This document shows, piece by piece, positions 4,475 to 27,382 of a stretch of DNA of 64,000 nt. This stretch comes from Corynebacterium sp. zg-331. GTDB taxonomy: Bacteria > Actinomycetota > Actinomycetes > Mycobacteriales > Mycobacteriaceae. The position numbers and the translations under genes were made by a program. Positions within the stretch are counted from its first letter, which is position 1. The number at the start of each line of letters is the position of its first letter. Location of the stretch: positions 1 to 64,000 of the forward strand of contig NZ_JACMYD010000001.1 in the NCBI RefSeq assembly GCF_014267345.1, given 5' to 3'. The notes under the pieces are model-generated. The model did no database searches and was not told the origin of the DNA. It saw only the letters and a program-made list of their open reading frames with translations.

Positions 4475-5209
4475 ATGAGTTCTCAGGATTTCCGCCGCGC
4501 CGACGGCCGCGCCCTCAACGAGATGCGCCCCGTGCGCCTCACCCGCCGCTTTACCACCAACCCCGCGGGCAGCGTGCTCGTGGAGTTCGGCAACACCAAG
4601 GTGCTGTGCACGGCCACCGCCGAGGAGGGCGTGCCCCGCTTCAAGCGCGACTCCGGCGAGGGCTGGCTGACCGCCGAGTACGCTATGCTGCCCGCCGCTC
4701 CCTCCGAGCGGATGCCGCGCGAATCCATGAAGGGCAAGGTCAAGGGGCGCACCCATGAGATCTCCCGGCTCATCGGGCGCTCCCTGCGTGCCGCCGTGGA
4801 CCTGCGCGAGCTGGGCGAGAACACCATCCAGATCGACTGCGACGTGCTCCAGGCCGACGGCGGCACCCGTACCGCTGCGATCACCGGCGCCTACGTGGCG
4901 CTGGCCGACGCCGTGGCCGCCCTCCGTGAGCGCGGCGCCGTCACCGGCTCCCCGCTGCGCGAGGCCGTGGCCGCCGTCTCCGTGGGCATCGTCGACGGAC
5001 GCGTGAGCCTCGACCTGCCCTACGAGGAGGACTCCCGCGCCGAGGTGGACATGAACGTGGTGATGACCGGCTCCGGGCGTTTCGTGGAGATCCAGGGCAC
5101 CGGCGAGGACGGCACCTTCGACTGCGCCCAGCTCGGGGAGCTGCTCGACGCCGCCGCCGCGGGCTGCGCCCAGCTCATCGAGGCGCAGCGCGCCGCCCTG
5201 GAGGCGTGA
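4475..5209 (+). CDS. rph: ribonuclease PH
   Basis: 244 residues. RNase PH trims tRNA 3' ends phosphorolytically in the cytoplasm as a hexamer of dimers. Visible signatures include the start [13 protein letters not shown], the phosphate-site segment [15 protein letters not shown], and [20 protein letters not shown] near the C-terminus. Length matches the family. The ATG at 4475 gives the conserved [12 protein letters not shown] start; longer upstream reading is not conserved. Its stop overlaps the start of the rdgB homologue (GTGA), a common actinobacterial pairing. Confidence 0.95.
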
Positions 5210-5823
5210 GCGCCGTGAAGCTGCTGGTAGCCTCCAACAACGCCAAGAAGCTGCGCGAGCTGCGCCGCATCCTCGACGCCGCGGGCGTGGCCGGGGTGGA
5301 ACTGGTCTCCCTCTCCGAGGTGGACGCCTACCCCGAGCCGGTGGAGGACGGCCGCACCTTTGCCGACAACGCCCTCCTCAAGGCGCGCGCCGGGGTGGCC
5401 CACACCGGGCTGCCCACCGTGGCGGACGACTCCGGCCTGGCCGTGGAAGAGATGAACGGCATGCCCGGCGTGCTCTCCGCGCGGTGGTCCGGCGGGCACG
5501 GCGACGACGAGGCCAACAACCGACTGCTGCTGGCCCAGATGGGTGACGTCCCGGACGAGCGGCGCGCGGCGGCCTTCGTCTCCGTGTGTGCGCTGGTCCT
5601 TCCCGGCGGCGAGGAGATCGTCTCCGAGGGGCGCTGGGAGGGCCGCCTGCTGCGCGAGCCGGTGGGGGAGAACGGCTTTGGCTACGACCCCCTCTTCGCC
5701 CCCCTCGACGGGGATGGCCGCTCCTCTGCGCAGCTCAGCCCCGAGGAAAAAGACGCCAGCTCCCACCGCGCACGGGCGCTGGCGGGGCTGGTTGAGCGCA
5801 TAGCGGCGCTGGCGGAGGGCTAG
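5206..5823 (+). CDS. rdgB: non-canonical purine NTP pyrophosphatase (RdgB/HAM1)
   Basis: 205 residues. The enzyme hydrolyses dITP, XTP and related damaged nucleotides to monophosphates. Signatures seen are the N-terminal [18 protein letters not shown] with the SNN/K nucleotide-binding motif, [20 protein letters not shown] with the catalytic Asp, and FGYDPLF. It starts with GTG overlapping rph by 4 nt, so it is translationally coupled. Confidence 0.93.
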
Positions 5824-19205: not shown

Positions 19206-20819
19206 GTGTTCCCCGCGCTAGCGGGGATGAGCCGAGAGGGCCAGAACGGTTCGAGCCGGTGGAGCTGTGTTCCCCGCGCTAGCGGGGATGAGCCCATGGT
19301 GCGTACTGCAGTGGGTACGGGTATGCGGTGTTCCCCGCGCTAGCGGGGATGAGCCGGCTCGACAGGCCATCAACCGCAGACCCAATCAGTGTTCCCCGCG
19401 CTAGCGGGGATGAGCCGGGGCTCTAGGATCGCCGCACCCATCGACGCCAGTGTTCCCCGCGCTAGCGGGGATGAGCCTCTCTGTGTGGGTTGTGTGAGAG
19501 CTGAATAGTGGTGTTCCCCGCGCTAGCGGGGATGAGCCGAATTTCCCAGGATTGCCCCGGACGAGGCTGTAGTGTTCCCCGCGCTAGCGGGGATGAGCCG
19601 TTCTCCTCCCCCATGCAGATCGGATAACCCCGGTGTTCCCCGCGCTAGCGGGGATGAGCCGTTGTGCCGAGTTCCTGGGCGTAGGGCAGCATTGTGTTCC
19701 CCGCGCTAGCGGGGATGAGCCCTCCGCGGGGCTACGCTCGGAGATTCAACGTGCGTGTTCCCCGCGCTAGCGGGGATGAGCCCAGCTTGTGGGGGCAGGT
19801 CACGGCGGCGTTCTCGTGTTCCCCGCGCTAGCGGGGATGAGCCCGATGTCCTCGCCCCAACACAGGTTTGGGAGTTGTGTTCCCCGCGCTAGCGGGGATG
19901 AGCCCTCTGCTGGATTCAAAAAGGCAACCAGGGATATGTGTTCCCCGCGCTAGCGGGGATGAGCCCCCCAAGAGGCAAACCGGGAGGGGGAAAGGGCGGT
20001 GTTCCCCGCGCTAGCGGGGATGAGCCCGCCGCCATGGCGGGTTCGGGGGCCGTATCGCGGTGTTCCCCGCGCTAGCGGGGATGAGCCCGCCACCTGGCGC
20101 GGGCCCGCCGGGGCAGCCGGGTGTTCCCCGCGCTAGCGGGGATGAGCCCCTTGACGGAGCGTTCCTTGAGACCGCGCTTTTGTGTTCCCCGCGCTAGCGG
20201 GGATGAGCCCCTTTCTGTGTTGGTGAACAAAAAACAAGCCCCGTGTTCCCCGCGCTAGCGGGGATGAGCCCTCCGAGGCCTTGTTGGATGCTTTCATGGT
20301 GGAGTGTTCCCCGCGCTAGCGGGGATGAGCCGAAATCCCGCGCTTACGTCATGGAACAGGCCCAGTGTTCCCCGCGCTAGCGGGGATGAGCCCAGCGCAT
20401 CGTAGCGGGTCCCCGGAATACGGTTGTGTTCCCCGCGCTAGCGGGGATGAGCCCCCCTCAACTTGCCGCAGCGACAACTCATCCCCGTGTTCCCCGCGCT
20501 AGCGGGGATGAGCCTCGACCCCGCCGAGGCCTTGCGGTCAAGGAAACGTGTTCCCCGCGCTAGCGGGGATGAGCCCCGCATGGTGGATCAGTGGCACGGT
20601 GACGGCTGGTGTTCCCCGCGCTAGCGGGGATGAGCCCGAGGCGTGGTAAAGCCACCAAGATCGGCGTGCGTGTTCCCCGCGCTAGCGGGGATGAGCCCCA
20701 TGAAAGCGGTAGCAAACAGCACCAGAATCGGTGTTCCCCGCGCTAGCGGGGATGAGCCTCGAACCCACCCCTCGGCCACCAGGCCCAGGCCGTGTTCCCC
20801 GCGCTAGCGGGGATGAGCC
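19206..20819 (+). CRISPR. type I-E-like CRISPR array, 27 repeats and 26 spacers
   Basis: A 28-nt repeat (GTGTTCCCCGCG, then CTAGCGGGGATGAGCC, palindromic core CCCCGC/GCGGGG) recurs at 19206 and every 61 nt to 20792, 27 times, with no mismatch seen in any copy. Intervals are uniformly 33 nt, or 32 nt if the variable 29th base is counted as repeat, as in E. coli type I-E. I saw no duplicated spacers. No cas gene lies in the window. Short frames across the array are translation artefacts. Confidence 0.97.
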
Positions 20820-20935
20820 GCGCTCAGTCTGCCAATTCAGATCAGCGAGTGGAGACGGAGCCGACCCAGAAGCAAGCACCACAAGCGGTGACACAAAGAT
20901 CCTCTACCCTAAGCCCCCCCCAGAAAGGAATCACC

Positions 20936-21195: not shown

Positions 21196-21223
21196 GTGTT
21201 CCCCGCGCTAGCGGGGATGAGCC
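21196..21223 (+). repeat. solitary CRISPR repeat
   Basis: An exact copy of the 28-nt CRISPR repeat, 376 nt beyond the last array repeat. It is preceded by 27 nt of possible spacer remnant that abuts the IS3 terminal fragment, and followed directly by a transposase fragment. Confidence 0.95.
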
Positions 21224-23808: not shown

Positions 23809-24816
23809 TTAGAAGTCCCAGTCCGATTCCGCCGTGGGCTCGGTGGCGCCGATGATGTAGCTGGAGCCGGAGCCGCTGAAGAAATCGTGGGTCTCGGAGG
23901 CGTCGGGGGTCAGTGCCGCAAGGATTTCCGGTTCCACGGCCTCGGCCTCGTCCTCGTAGGCGGGGGAGTAGCCGAGGTTCATCAGGGCCTTGTTGGCGTT
24001 GTAGTGCACGAAGGGCATCACGCCGTCGAAACCGGGGGTGGGGGCGAGGGCATAGAGCTCGGCGGAGTAGTCGCGCTCCAGGGCCAGCAGGTCGGCCACG
24101 AGTCGGTGGGTGAAGTCGTGCATTTCCTCGCGGCGCTGGGGGTGGGCGTCGAGCCCGCGTTGGTATTTGTATCCGGAGTAGTAGCCGTGCACCGCCTTGT
24201 CGCGCAGGATGAGGCGGATCATGTCTGCGGTGTTGAGCATGACGGCCCTGGTGGAGAACCATAGCGGCAGGTAGAACCCGGCGTAGAGGAGCAGGGAGGA
24301 GAGGATGGTGGCCGCGGCCTTGCGCTTGAGGGGGTCGGTGCCGTGGTAGTGGGAGAGCACGGCGGTGGCCCGGCGCTGAAGGAGGGGGTTGTCGATGGCC
24401 CAGGTGTAGGCCTCGGTGATCTCGCGGGTGGAGCAGAGGGTGGAAAAGACGGAGCTGTAGGAGCGGGCGTGCACGGATTGCATGAAGGCGATGTTGGTGT
24501 ACACGGCTTGTTCTTGCTCGGTGCGGGCGTCGGGGATCTGGGCGGGTTCGCCCACGGTGGCCTGCACGGTGTCAAGAAGCGTGAGGCCGGTAAACACGCG
24601 CACGGTGAGGGTGCGGTGCGCGGGGTCGAGGGCCTGCCAGGAGGGCAGGTCGTTGGAGAGGGGAACCTTTTCCGGCAGCCAGAAGTTGCTGGTGAGGCGG
24701 CGCCAGACCTCGGTGTCCTTGGGGTCTTGGAGGAGGTTCCAGTTGACGGGGCGGATGGGGCCGTCCTGCGGGCCGCGCCAAGCGCTGGGCAGGAGGGATC
24801 GTTCGATGTAGTGCAT
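23809..24816 (-). CDS. nrdF: ribonucleotide reductase radical subunit, class Ie-type NrdF (metal-ligand glutamates replaced)
   Basis: 335 residues, clearly NrdF: FWLPEK near residue 45, VFTGLTLLD (Asp82), YTNIAFMQSVHARSY (His116, Tyr120), VHGYY (His210), C-terminal FFSGSGSSYIIG and the DWDF end that docks NrdE. In class Ib NrdF the metals are held by Asp, four Glu-type ligands and two His. Here the ligand in FM(E)SVH is Gln113, the one in LL(E)S is Ser173 and the one in RD(E)SVH is Lys207. This Gln/Ser/Lys set is the signature of class Ie, which uses a metal-free DOPA radical formed with NrdI. Its ATG directly follows the nrdI stop. nrdE is not in the window. Confidence 0.9.
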   Translation of the reverse strand: MHYIERSLLPSAWRGPQDGPIRPVNWNLLQDPKDTEVWRRLTSNFWLPEKVPLSNDLPSWQALDPAHRTLTVRVFTGLTLLDTVQATVGEPAQIPDARTEQEQAVYTNIAFMQSVHARSYSSVFSTLCSTREITEAYTWAIDNPLLQRRATAVLSHYHGTDPLKRKAAATILSSLLLYAGFYLPLWFSTRAVMLNTADMIRLILRDKAVHGYYSGYKYQRGLDAHPQRREEMHDFTHRLVADLLALERDYSAELYALAPTPGFDGVMPFVHYNANKALMNLGYSPAYEDEAEAVEPEILAALTPDASETHDFFSGSGSSYIIGATEPTAESDWDF

Positions 24817-25224
24817 TTACAGGGTCCTTTCGATGAGGAGGCGGCGTACGCGCGCAACGTCGCGGGAGGTGCCCAGAAGCTCGAAGCGGTAGAGCTCGGG
24901 CACCTGGCACTTGCGGGAGATGAGAGGGCCGGCGCAGCAGTAGGCGCTGCCGAAGTTGGTGTTTCCGCTGGTGATGACGCCGCGCAAAAGGCCGCGGTGG
25001 GCGGGGTCGTTGAGGAAGTGGATGACCTGCTTGGGCACGGCGCGCGCAGGGTCGCCTCCGCCGTAGCTTGGTGTGATGAGGATGAAGGGTCGGGTGGGGT
25101 GGATGGGTTCGTCGCCGCGGCGCAGGGGGATGCGCGCGGCGGGGTGGGCGAGCTTGTCCACGAAGCGCCGGGTGTTTTCCGAGGCCGAGGAGAAGTAGAC
25201 GATGTCGGGCGGGTGAGTGTTCAT
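24817..25224 (-). CDS. nrdI: flavodoxin-like protein NrdI
   Basis: 135 residues. FMN-binding loops are recognisable: [11 protein letters not shown] (phosphate loop), TPSYGGGDP and [14 protein letters not shown]. NrdI supplies superoxide or another oxidant that activates NrdF; in class Ie it is required to hydroxylate the NrdF tyrosine to DOPA. Its TAA is immediately followed by the nrdF ATG, so the two are a tight operon. The AT-rich stretch 25225-25245 upstream probably holds the promoter; I do not see a clear NrdR box. Confidence 0.92.
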
Positions 25225-25306
25225 ATATCAGATAATAAAAGTTCAATCGGTTGAACTCCAACGGGCCGGTGAGGCGCCCGCACGACGGAGAAGTAGGGTG
25301 GAGCCC

Positions 25307-27382
25307 ATGACAGCCCTCGCCGCACCCGAACCCCAGCGCCGGAGCCAGGCGCGCCTCTCCTGGCCCCTCTACCTGCTTTTTTCCCTGGTCGCGGGCGGCG
25401 TGGGGGCGGCGATCTCCTGGGGCTTTTTGAGCGAATCCCTCGCGGCCCTGGGCATCCCCGATCCCGGCCGCCTCACCACCGCCGGGCTGCCCTTCTTCCG
25501 TGCGGTGGGCTGGATGATGGCCTCGCTCGGGGTGGGCTCCTTCCTGGCCTCCGCCTTCCTCATTGCCCCGCGCCCTGAGCCCATCCTCCAGGCCCGGCTG
25601 AGCGTGGATGGGCACATCGCCGCGCGCACGGGTTCCTGGAGCATCCTGTGCTTCGGCCTGGTGGCGTTGCTGATGATCCCGCTGACGCTTTCCGACGTCT
25701 CCGGCACCCCCTTTGCCCAGACCCTGCGCCCGGAGGCCTGGGGCCTGGCCATTAGTCAGGTATCCACGGCCCTGGCCTGGCTGTGGGTGGCCCTGATCTG
25801 CGCCGTGGTGGGCGGCCTGGGGTTGTGGTCCCACCGGTGGGCGAGCCAGCCGTGGCTGCTGGTGGGGGCCATCCTCACGGTGATCCCCCTGGGCATGGAG
25901 GGCCACTCCGCGGCCGGAGGCGATCACGACTACGGCACGAACTCCTACCTTTGGCACCTGATCTTCCTCGTGCTGTGGATGGGCGGACTCATGGCGCTGA
26001 TCGCCCACGGGCGTCGCCTGGGCCCGCACCTGGACGTCGCCGTGCACCGGTACTCCGCCCTCGCGCTGGTCGCCGTGATCTTCATGGCCGCCTCCGGTCT
26101 TATCAATGCCGCGATCCGTATCGAGTTCTCGGACTGGTTCACTACAACCTACGGCCGCATCATCGTGGCCAAGACCGCGGGCGTGATCGTGCTGGCGTTC
26201 TTCGGTTTCCTACACCGCCAGCTCACCATCCCGCAGCTGCGGCGTGACGCCACGCGCTCTTCGGCCTTCCTCCGCGTAGCCATCGCGGAGGTGTTGGTTA
26301 TGGCCGCGGTGACCGGCATCGCCATCACGATGGGGCGCACCCCACCGCCCCCGCCGCGCGATCCCAATCTCTCGCCCATGGCCATCGCCATCGGGTTCGA
26401 TCTTCACCAGCGCCCCACCTTCTGGAACGTCTGGGGCATGTGGCGCTTCGATCTCATGTTCGCCACCATCGCCATCCTGCTCGCCGCTGCCTACCTGTGG
26501 GGGGTCGTGCGCCTGCGCTGCGCGGGTGCCTCCTGGCCGTGGTCGCGCACCGCCTGGTTTCTGCTGGGGTGTCTGACCCTGGGCGCGATGATGAGCTCCG
26601 GCATGGGAATGAACATGATGGCGCTCTTTTCCATGCACATGCTGGTACACATGGGATTGTCCATGGTGGTGCCGGTGTTCCTGGTGCTTGGTGCTCCGCT
26701 CACGCTCGTCATGGAAACCGTGCCCCCCGCAGCCCCTGGGTGCCCCCCGGGGCTGCACGAATGGGCCTGGGCGCTGTGCCACAATCGCGTCATCGGGTTC
26801 ATCACCGCGCCGGGCGTGAACACCGTGCAGTTCATCGTGATCTTCTACCTGCTGTATCTCACTCCGCTCTACGACGTCCTCGTCTCCGAGCACGGCGGGC
26901 ACGTGGGGATGAACATGGTCTTTTTAATCTCCGGTTATCTCTACTTTTGGGACATGATTAGCCCCGACCCCGTGCCGCGTCGAGGCACCCCCGTGGCGCG
27001 TATCGGCTGGCTGATCTTTTCCATGCCGTTTCACCTCTATTTTGGCGTGTACCTCATGCAGCTCACGGACATCCTGGCCGGAGATTTCTATTCCTCGCTG
27101 GGCCTGCCCTGGGAGCCGGATCTGCTGGAGGATCAGCGCATCGGTGGCGGCATCGCCTGGGCCTCCGGGGCGTTTCCGCTGGTGATCGTGTTTAGTGCAC
27201 TCTTTCGCCAGTGGCGACGCGAGGAGGAAAAGAAAGCGAGTGATTATGACCGCCGCGCCGAGGCGGAAGGCGATGTGGATATGGAGAACTATAACGCCAT
27301 GCTGGCGCGCATGAACGCCGGCGATAGCCCGCAGAATGACGCTTACTACACCGAGGAATTCGGGGCGGGGAAGAAGCGTTAG
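25307..27382 (+). CDS. CopD/CtaG fusion membrane protein (copper handling, cytochrome c oxidase assembly)
   Basis: 691 residues with about 14-16 membrane helices. The N-terminal half is CopD-like (GHSAAGGDHDYGTNSYLWHLIF, key His residues; RYSALALVAV). The C-terminal half is caa3_CtaG-like (MALFSMHMLVHMGLSM, HEWAW, MNMVFLISGYLYFWDM). The Met- and His-rich helices suggest copper passage for cytochrome oxidase or copper tolerance. The fusion is common in Actinobacteria. A 50-residue charged tail follows. ATG at 25307 gives the sensible N-terminus. Confidence 0.88.
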   Translation: MTALAAPEPQRRSQARLSWPLYLLFSLVAGGVGAAISWGFLSESLAALGIPDPGRLTTAGLPFFRAVGWMMASLGVGSFLASAFLIAPRPEPILQARLSVDGHIAARTGSWSILCFGLVALLMIPLTLSDVSGTPFAQTLRPEAWGLAISQVSTALAWLWVALICAVVGGLGLWSHRWASQPWLLVGAILTVIPLGMEGHSAAGGDHDYGTNSYLWHLIFLVLWMGGLMALIAHGRRLGPHLDVAVHRYSALALVAVIFMAASGLINAAIRIEFSDWFTTTYGRIIVAKTAGVIVLAFFGFLHRQLTIPQLRRDATRSSAFLRVAIAEVLVMAAVTGIAITMGRTPPPPPRDPNLSPMAIAIGFDLHQRPTFWNVWGMWRFDLMFATIAILLAAAYLWGVVRLRCAGASWPWSRTAWFLLGCLTLGAMMSSGMGMNMMALFSMHMLVHMGLSMVVPVFLVLGAPLTLVMETVPPAAPGCPPGLHEWAWALCHNRVIGFITAPGVNTVQFIVIFYLLYLTPLYDVLVSEHGGHVGMNMVFLISGYLYFWDMISPDPVPRRGTPVARIGWLIFSMPFHLYFGVYLMQLTDILAGDFYSSLGLPWEPDLLEDQRIGGGIAWASGAFPLVIVFSALFRQWRREEEKKASDYDRRAEAEGDVDMENYNAMLARMNAGDSPQNDAYYTEEFGAGKKR

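Follow-up and report, generated by a model that had tools for sequence, protein, structure and literature searches.

A class Ie (QSK) nrdI-nrdF pair in Corynebacterium sp. zg-331 and a putative MntR-type box before it

What kind of radical subunit is encoded by an nrdF gene that has lost three of its metal ligands, and when would a cell use it? The question is raised by a locus of Corynebacterium sp. zg-331 in the window analyzed here, the whole stretch of 64,000 nucleotides at positions 1 to 64,000 of contig NZ_JACMYD010000001.1. In this window, nrdF (23809–24816, minus strand, 335 aa, PF00268) and nrdI, coding for a flavodoxin-like activase (24817–25224, minus strand, 135 aa; PF07972; TIGR00333 at 148 bits), abut with 0 bases between them. 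A sequence-only reading of this DNA had identified nrdF, had placed nrdI directly upstream with its stop touching the nrdF start, and had seen no nrdE at the locus; the PF00268 match, the abutting frames and the position of the genome's sole nrdE elsewhere agreed with it. The NCBIfam model that fits the protein best bears the name “class 1b” (533 bits, cut-off 486), so that routine naming conceals class Ie. We give a probability of about 0.85 to the view that nrdI-nrdF encodes a class Ie R2 of the QSK type with its flavoprotein activase, an MntR-controlled, Mn-independent spare beside the class Ib R2. A plasmid search returned 549 records, all below 60% identity. Elsewhere in the window, a CRISPR-like array was observed at 19206–20820 (27 near-identical repeats of ~28 bases, spaced 61 apart), with an isolated repeat copy ~400 bases past it (about 21196–21223).

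Residue set and companion genes of the window NrdF

The seven residues that define the site in the window NrdF were D82, Q113, H116, Y120, S173, K207 and H210. Thus, three ligand glutamates were replaced by Gln113, Ser173 and Lys207, and Asp82, His116, His210 and Tyr120 were kept, as had been claimed from the letters; BLASTP against the genome's own class Ib NrdF confirmed these columns, aligning FMQSVH with FMESVH, ILSSLL with LLESFL, and RDKAVH with RDEAVH. The earlier reading had named glutamates at shifted positions as a finding that would refute it, and in the alignment Q, S and K faced the ligand glutamates. A shifted alignment was also rejected on the wider sets, in which the columns were consistent for 84 QSK loci (among the matches listed) and 31 class Ib loci of the genus, as well as for the best 80 of 591 named loci. 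The genus set came from a search of 201 Corynebacterium genomes, from which 84 places were kept among the matches listed, spread over 83 genomes with that of the window among them; these were places with at least 62% identity, and weaker places and the fragmentary G075 were left out. All 84 genus QSK loci (among the matches listed) read D Q H Y S K H, and all 31 class Ib loci of the genus that were read, including the own class Ib NrdF, had D E H Y E E H. Similarly, among the best 80 of 591 named loci, the same three substitutions occurred in 42 Actinomycetota loci, and D E H Y E E H in 38 class Ib loci.

The window NrdF was 61–93% identical to the other genus QSK loci (among the matches listed) and 57% identical to its own class Ib counterpart, its closeness to the QSK group being judged by identity and PDB matches and not by a joint tree. 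Its nearest named QSK loci, within the best 80 of 591, were those of C. halotolerans (73%) and Corynebacterium sp. ACRQK (72%), which supports the genus that the sequence-only reading had given. By sequence, the nearest solved chains were 8RAG and 8RAH (449 bits, next 404.6). An AlphaFold2 model (mean pLDDT 81, C-terminal tail below 50) had 8RAG as its first Foldseek match, with 64% identity over the match, which confirmed the fold and nothing more. The available descriptions of these two structures assign them to the QSK class Ie R2 of Bifidobacterium (Gardnerella) vaginale, without (8RAG) and with (8RAH) the Tyr150 modification. The exact residue set, these nearest structures and the adjacent nrdI support the assignment of the window NrdF to class Ie, QSK type, and the proposal of the sequence-only reading is upheld at the level of predicted class.

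The novelty which that reading implied was too high. PMC11846895, cited here from excerpts like the other papers below, already describes QSK nrdIF loci, many of which are from Corynebacterium, with 104 such loci in Actinomycetota; these are, like the window locus, pairs without nrdE, and the window locus belongs to this published class. In the same excerpts, the B. vaginale QSK R2 is metal-free and DOPA-forming and contains only trace Mn and Fe. It shares with the window protein Q/S/K, the retained D/H/H/Y and an nrdI in the operon. The two differ in that B. vaginale has nrdHIEF in one operon as its sole class I RNR, whereas nrdI-nrdF stands alone in the window. Class Ib NrdF proteins such as M. 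tuberculosis NrdF2 and C. ammoniagenes R2F have the fold, the NrdI partner and the R1 tail in common with the window NrdF but, unlike it, keep all metal ligands.

The genome (2.16 Mb, 24 contigs, 99.99% complete) contained two nrdF, two nrdI and one nrdE. The other nrdF (C4:13209–14156, locus L001) has the residues D E H Y E E H and is class Ib; in its vicinity on C4 are nrdE and the second nrdI. The proposed search for nrdE and a second nrdF found one of each, and the expectation of a second radical subunit alongside a normal Mn NrdF was confirmed in gene content. A ferritin-like ORF, recognized by eye, lies divergently beside the class Ib nrdF (L001 2531–3025, plus strand). The R1-docking tails of the two R2s were nearly alike in the BLASTP alignment. 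With a single nrdE in the genome, both R2s probably use one common R1, which is the simplest reading; an R1 common to the QSK and Mn R2s is proposed for nrdIF genomes in the excerpts of PMC11846895. Besides, all 83 QSK genomes (among the matches listed) also had a class Ib nrdF (80/80 in one search, to which the genus search added G063, G064 and the genome of the window), and the 31 class Ib loci from QSK genomes whose residues were read had the full ligand set. A DISAGREEMENT is to be recorded here: the 40 Corynebacterium species with QSK as sole RNR, given in the excerpts of PMC11846895, are at odds with 83 of 83 QSK genomes having class Ib nrdF. Differing genome sets or definitions may lie behind it.

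A palindrome before nrdI and its recurrence

The gap between nrdI and its divergent neighbour holds a perfect palindrome, GTTCAA-N4-TTGAAC (GTTCAATCGGTTGAAC, 25241–25256), 16 bases upstream of the start codon of nrdI, which we regard as a putative MntR-type box. The neighbour encodes a CopD/CtaG-like membrane protein (25307–27382, plus strand), shares this intergenic region and might come under the control of the box too. A TATTAT found by eye between the box and nrdI (25232–25237, minus strand) is a possible −10 element; a scan for consensus promoters and terminators reported no promoter beside the box. The MntR motif of C. glutamicum, which we take to be TGTTCAATGCGTTGAACA, agrees with the window box in 14 of 18 letters. 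It was reportedly described by Baumgart and Frunzke in 2015, a study cited in PMC11933003, and this 18-mer was not found in the literature searched. By our estimate (2%), it is not very unusual for a gap of ~82 bases to contain an inverted repeat of the 6-4-6 form by chance; the case rests on the recurrence of these exact letters.

Within the 2.16 Mb genome, the sole perfect box was the one before nrdI. Two sites had one mismatch: the first begins 40 bp ahead of mntH, whose product scored 439 bits with NCBIfam MntH (cut-off 430), and the other (L101 about 1666–1681; C20:124665) lies about 80 bp before a gene for an EmrB-like MFS transporter. Matches with two mismatches occurred four more times in the window, so that a box with two mismatches carries little weight by itself. 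The earlier claim of use under metal starvation gains support from the putative MntR-type box before both nrdI and the genome's own mntH, which points to Mn as the metal.

We found that the box recurs across the genus. In the 400 bases before nrdI at 53 nrdIF loci, it was present with 0, 1 and 2 mismatches in 13, 9 and 9 loci, respectively, i.e., at ≤1 mismatch in 22/53 and at ≤2 mismatches in 31/53, versus 0.02 and 0.74 loci expected from shuffles (averaged over 50 shuffles of the 53 stretches, 0.02 loci had a one-mismatch box and 0.72 a two-mismatch box). At nrdIEF loci a perfect box was seen in 1 of 30, the other 29 having at least three mismatches. L040, a short stretch without nrdI, was left out of the 53 and 30; the longer stretch (L369) is an nrdIEF locus. 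None of 20 class Ib nrdF upstream stretches had the box at ≤2 mismatches, the best having three. Among 30 nrdE loci (mostly 4.6 kb), one had a perfect box, five had two mismatches and the others three or four; the sole perfect box belonged to L145, a QSK nrdIEF operon.

A scan of 30 genomes, 24 of which were picked for carrying QSK, gave 28 perfect boxes versus four for a reversed control pattern. They preceded QSK nrdI (11), mntR-like genes (5), mntH (4), sodA (3) and FMN reductase genes (2), and three were left out of the gene assignment. Thus, of the 17 boxes not before nrdI, 12 preceded mntH, mntR or sodA and two an FMN reductase gene. Four of the five mntR-like boxes face a divergent gene for a metal-ABC binding protein and two of the three sodA boxes a divergent ldh; these mntR, binding-protein, sodA and ldh assignments were made by family search for L116 and L105 and from the translation for the others. 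Also, the box (≤1 mismatch) preceded mntH in nine of the 14 genomes with an mntH match, out of 31 searched; in the other five, mntH had no box at this threshold. The putative identity of the box as an MntR operator is based on its likeness to the C. glutamicum motif given above and on which genes follow its other copies, and its position suggests that nrdI-nrdF is switched on when Mn runs short.

MntR-like regulators and an FMN reductase gene beside QSK loci

An MntR-like protein was found in all 60 QSK genomes searched. That of the window genome (C24:28230–28907) scored 152.6 bits, below the NCBIfam MntR cut-off of 350. It has Asp/Glu in the columns where the genome's own DtxR has Met/Cys, the sulphur ligands in question presumably being Met10 and Cys102. 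The excerpts of PMC9936198 state that DtxR with its two sulphur ligands made acidic favours Mn over Fe. Judged by these residues, the genome has an MntR-like protein with predicted Mn-type (acidic) ligands.

The 84 QSK loci (among the matches listed) fell into two ARRANGEMENTS, 32 with the box only and 46 with an adjacent MntR-like gene only; six had neither and none had both, when the box was counted at ≤2 mismatches and longer stretches were used. Put differently, 46 of the 52 loci without a box (among the matches listed) had an adjacent MntR-like gene. Of these 46 regulators, two on the opposite strand, 37 have their start at most 1.2 kb from nrdI, six at ~1.7 kb and three at 2.7–3.4 kb. 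The column of DtxR Met10 holds Asn in 37 and Asp in nine, and that of Cys102 Glu in 40 and Asp in six, so the ligands of the adjacent regulators are not DtxR-like. Examples of such genes were observed in L370, L401 and L191 (2473–3189). Box and adjacent regulator excluded each other at a Fisher p of 1.8e-17, a test that ignores the kinship of the loci; both labels were clustered on the tree, and a relatedness-corrected test was not significant. On a quick tree the box changed nine times and the regulator 10 times, four of each being forced by starred branches. Over four independent starred pairs, the regulator was opposite in 2.8 on average and showed no difference in 1.2 (median p 0.25).

Another neighbour was an FMN reductase gene, defined as coding for a PF03358 protein like P0003, which lay on the same strand ≤400 bp downstream of nrdF in 46 of the 84 QSK loci (among the matches listed). 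Within the best 80 of 591 named loci, it was near nrdF in 17 of 42 QSK loci, of which 12 belong to genera other than Corynebacterium (Actinomyces, Actinotignum, Leucobacter, Gulosibacter, Micrococcus, Brevibacterium and Mycetocola; in Micrococcus about 1.6 kb beyond nrdF and cut by the contig end), and in none of 38 class Ib loci. Similarly, it was absent from 30 class Ib nrdF flanks of 1.5 kb. For example, Actinomyces sp. L191 has MntR-like gene, nrdI, nrdF and reductase (4944–5546) in this order, tightly spaced. G043 and G068 carry the reductase away from the locus and with a perfect box of its own, which a close relative, G173, does not have. The window genome had no reductase match at E 1e-20, as was the case for 15 others of 30 genomes. 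In Actinotignum (L192 3115–3756 and 3938–5002; L199), the FMN reductase gene was observed immediately before the QSK nrdF, and no nrdI was detected by tblastn within 9 kb in L192 or L199. By its position next to QSK nrdF, the FMN reductase is a candidate NrdI reductase. According to the excerpts of PMC11846895, replenishing the NrdI reductant may have limited the in vitro assay. The gene behind many QSK nrdF would then be a candidate source of NrdI reductant, the possible limit of the published assay.

Proposed function and alternatives

In the working that we propose, Mn-loaded MntR would sit on the palindrome at 25241–25256 and block nrdI-nrdF while Mn is plentiful. When Mn falls, MntR would be released, and mntH and nrdI-nrdF would come on together. 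NrdI would supply the oxidant that converts Tyr120 to DOPA, and the DOPA radical would drive the R1 encoded by the genome's only nrdE; this chemistry is drawn from published QSK work on another species. The nearest regulatory parallel is nrdI-nrdF2 (DIP1923-1924) of C. diphtheriae, listed in the excerpts of PMC13001254 (citing Peng 2021) as MntR-regulated with mntABCD, sodA and piuB; there, MntR binding and Mn-dependent repression are reported for the C. diphtheriae nrdI only. The likeness drawn here concerns the gene pair and MntR regulation, and the term “class ie” occurs 0 times in that excerpted text. The class Ie system of S. pyogenes, which lies beside a class Ib system and is reported to be repressed by Mn and Fe (PMC8463856, citing Do et al.), differs from the window locus in being of the VPK type, in an operon with its own R1, and in another phylum with another regulator. 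The excerpts of PMC11846895 make no mention of MntR, starvation, limitation, a regulator, NADPH or FMN reductase. Those of PMC9936198 contain class Ie, MntR and nrdF together, the class Ie passages concerning Mycoplasma and S. pyogenes. No paper linking MntR to class Ie in Corynebacterium came up in our search, a weak negative as most subscription journals lay outside it.

Other readings were weighed against this proposal. It is unlikely, but the least so among them, that the protein is a class Ie R2 whose box serves another regulator or the CopD/CtaG-like gene, nrdI-nrdF answering a different signal, for example oxidative stress or iron. The box does lie between two divergent genes, its motif is named by likeness to the one given above for C. 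glutamicum, and a one-mismatch site also precedes the MFS transporter gene. However, 32 of 84 QSK loci (among the matches listed) have the box before nrdI, it recurs before mntH, mntR and sodA in the genus, an MntR-like gene is usually adjacent where the box is missing (46/52, among the matches listed), and C. diphtheriae nrdI-nrdF2 is reported as MntR-regulated in the excerpts of PMC13001254. A metal site of unusual kind, in which Lys207 and the remaining ligands hold one metal, has in its favour that Asp82, His116 and His210 are retained; we consider it very improbable, since the QSK protein of B. vaginale, which has all seven residues in common with the window NrdF, contained no more than traces of Mn and Fe (excerpts of PMC11846895). 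Still less credible is a decaying copy of class Ib nrdF, without function after the loss of its metal ligands, even with a functional-looking class Ib nrdF elsewhere in the genome. We rejected this reading because the frame is open, the same substitutions are conserved in 84 of 84 genus loci (among the matches listed) and in 42 named Actinomycetota loci (best 80 of 591), nrdI and the R1 tail are retained, and a QSK relative is active in vitro according to the excerpts of PMC11846895.

With the MntR-controlled spare R2 as the preferred reading of the window locus, a broader one can be put forward tentatively, at somewhat less than even odds: QSK may be an MntR-run Mn-starvation module, controlled through the box or through its own MntR-like gene, the two being swapped repeatedly, with about half of the genus loci having an FMN reductase that recharges NrdI. 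It would cover Corynebacterium and some other Actinomycetota, the window locus being the box form without the reductase. According to the excerpts of a 2021 review (PMC8463856), when cells use class Ie enzymes is not understood. Of the 84 genus QSK loci (among the matches listed), 78 had either an MntR-type box or an MntR-like gene next to them, which leads to a testable answer, namely that class Ie replaces the Mn enzyme when Mn is scarce, with a common R1. Two features deserve to be followed further, namely the link to an Mn sensor across the genus and the neighbouring reductase gene; if the broader reading is true, the FMN reductase would supply the missing electron source for DOPA-radical formation.
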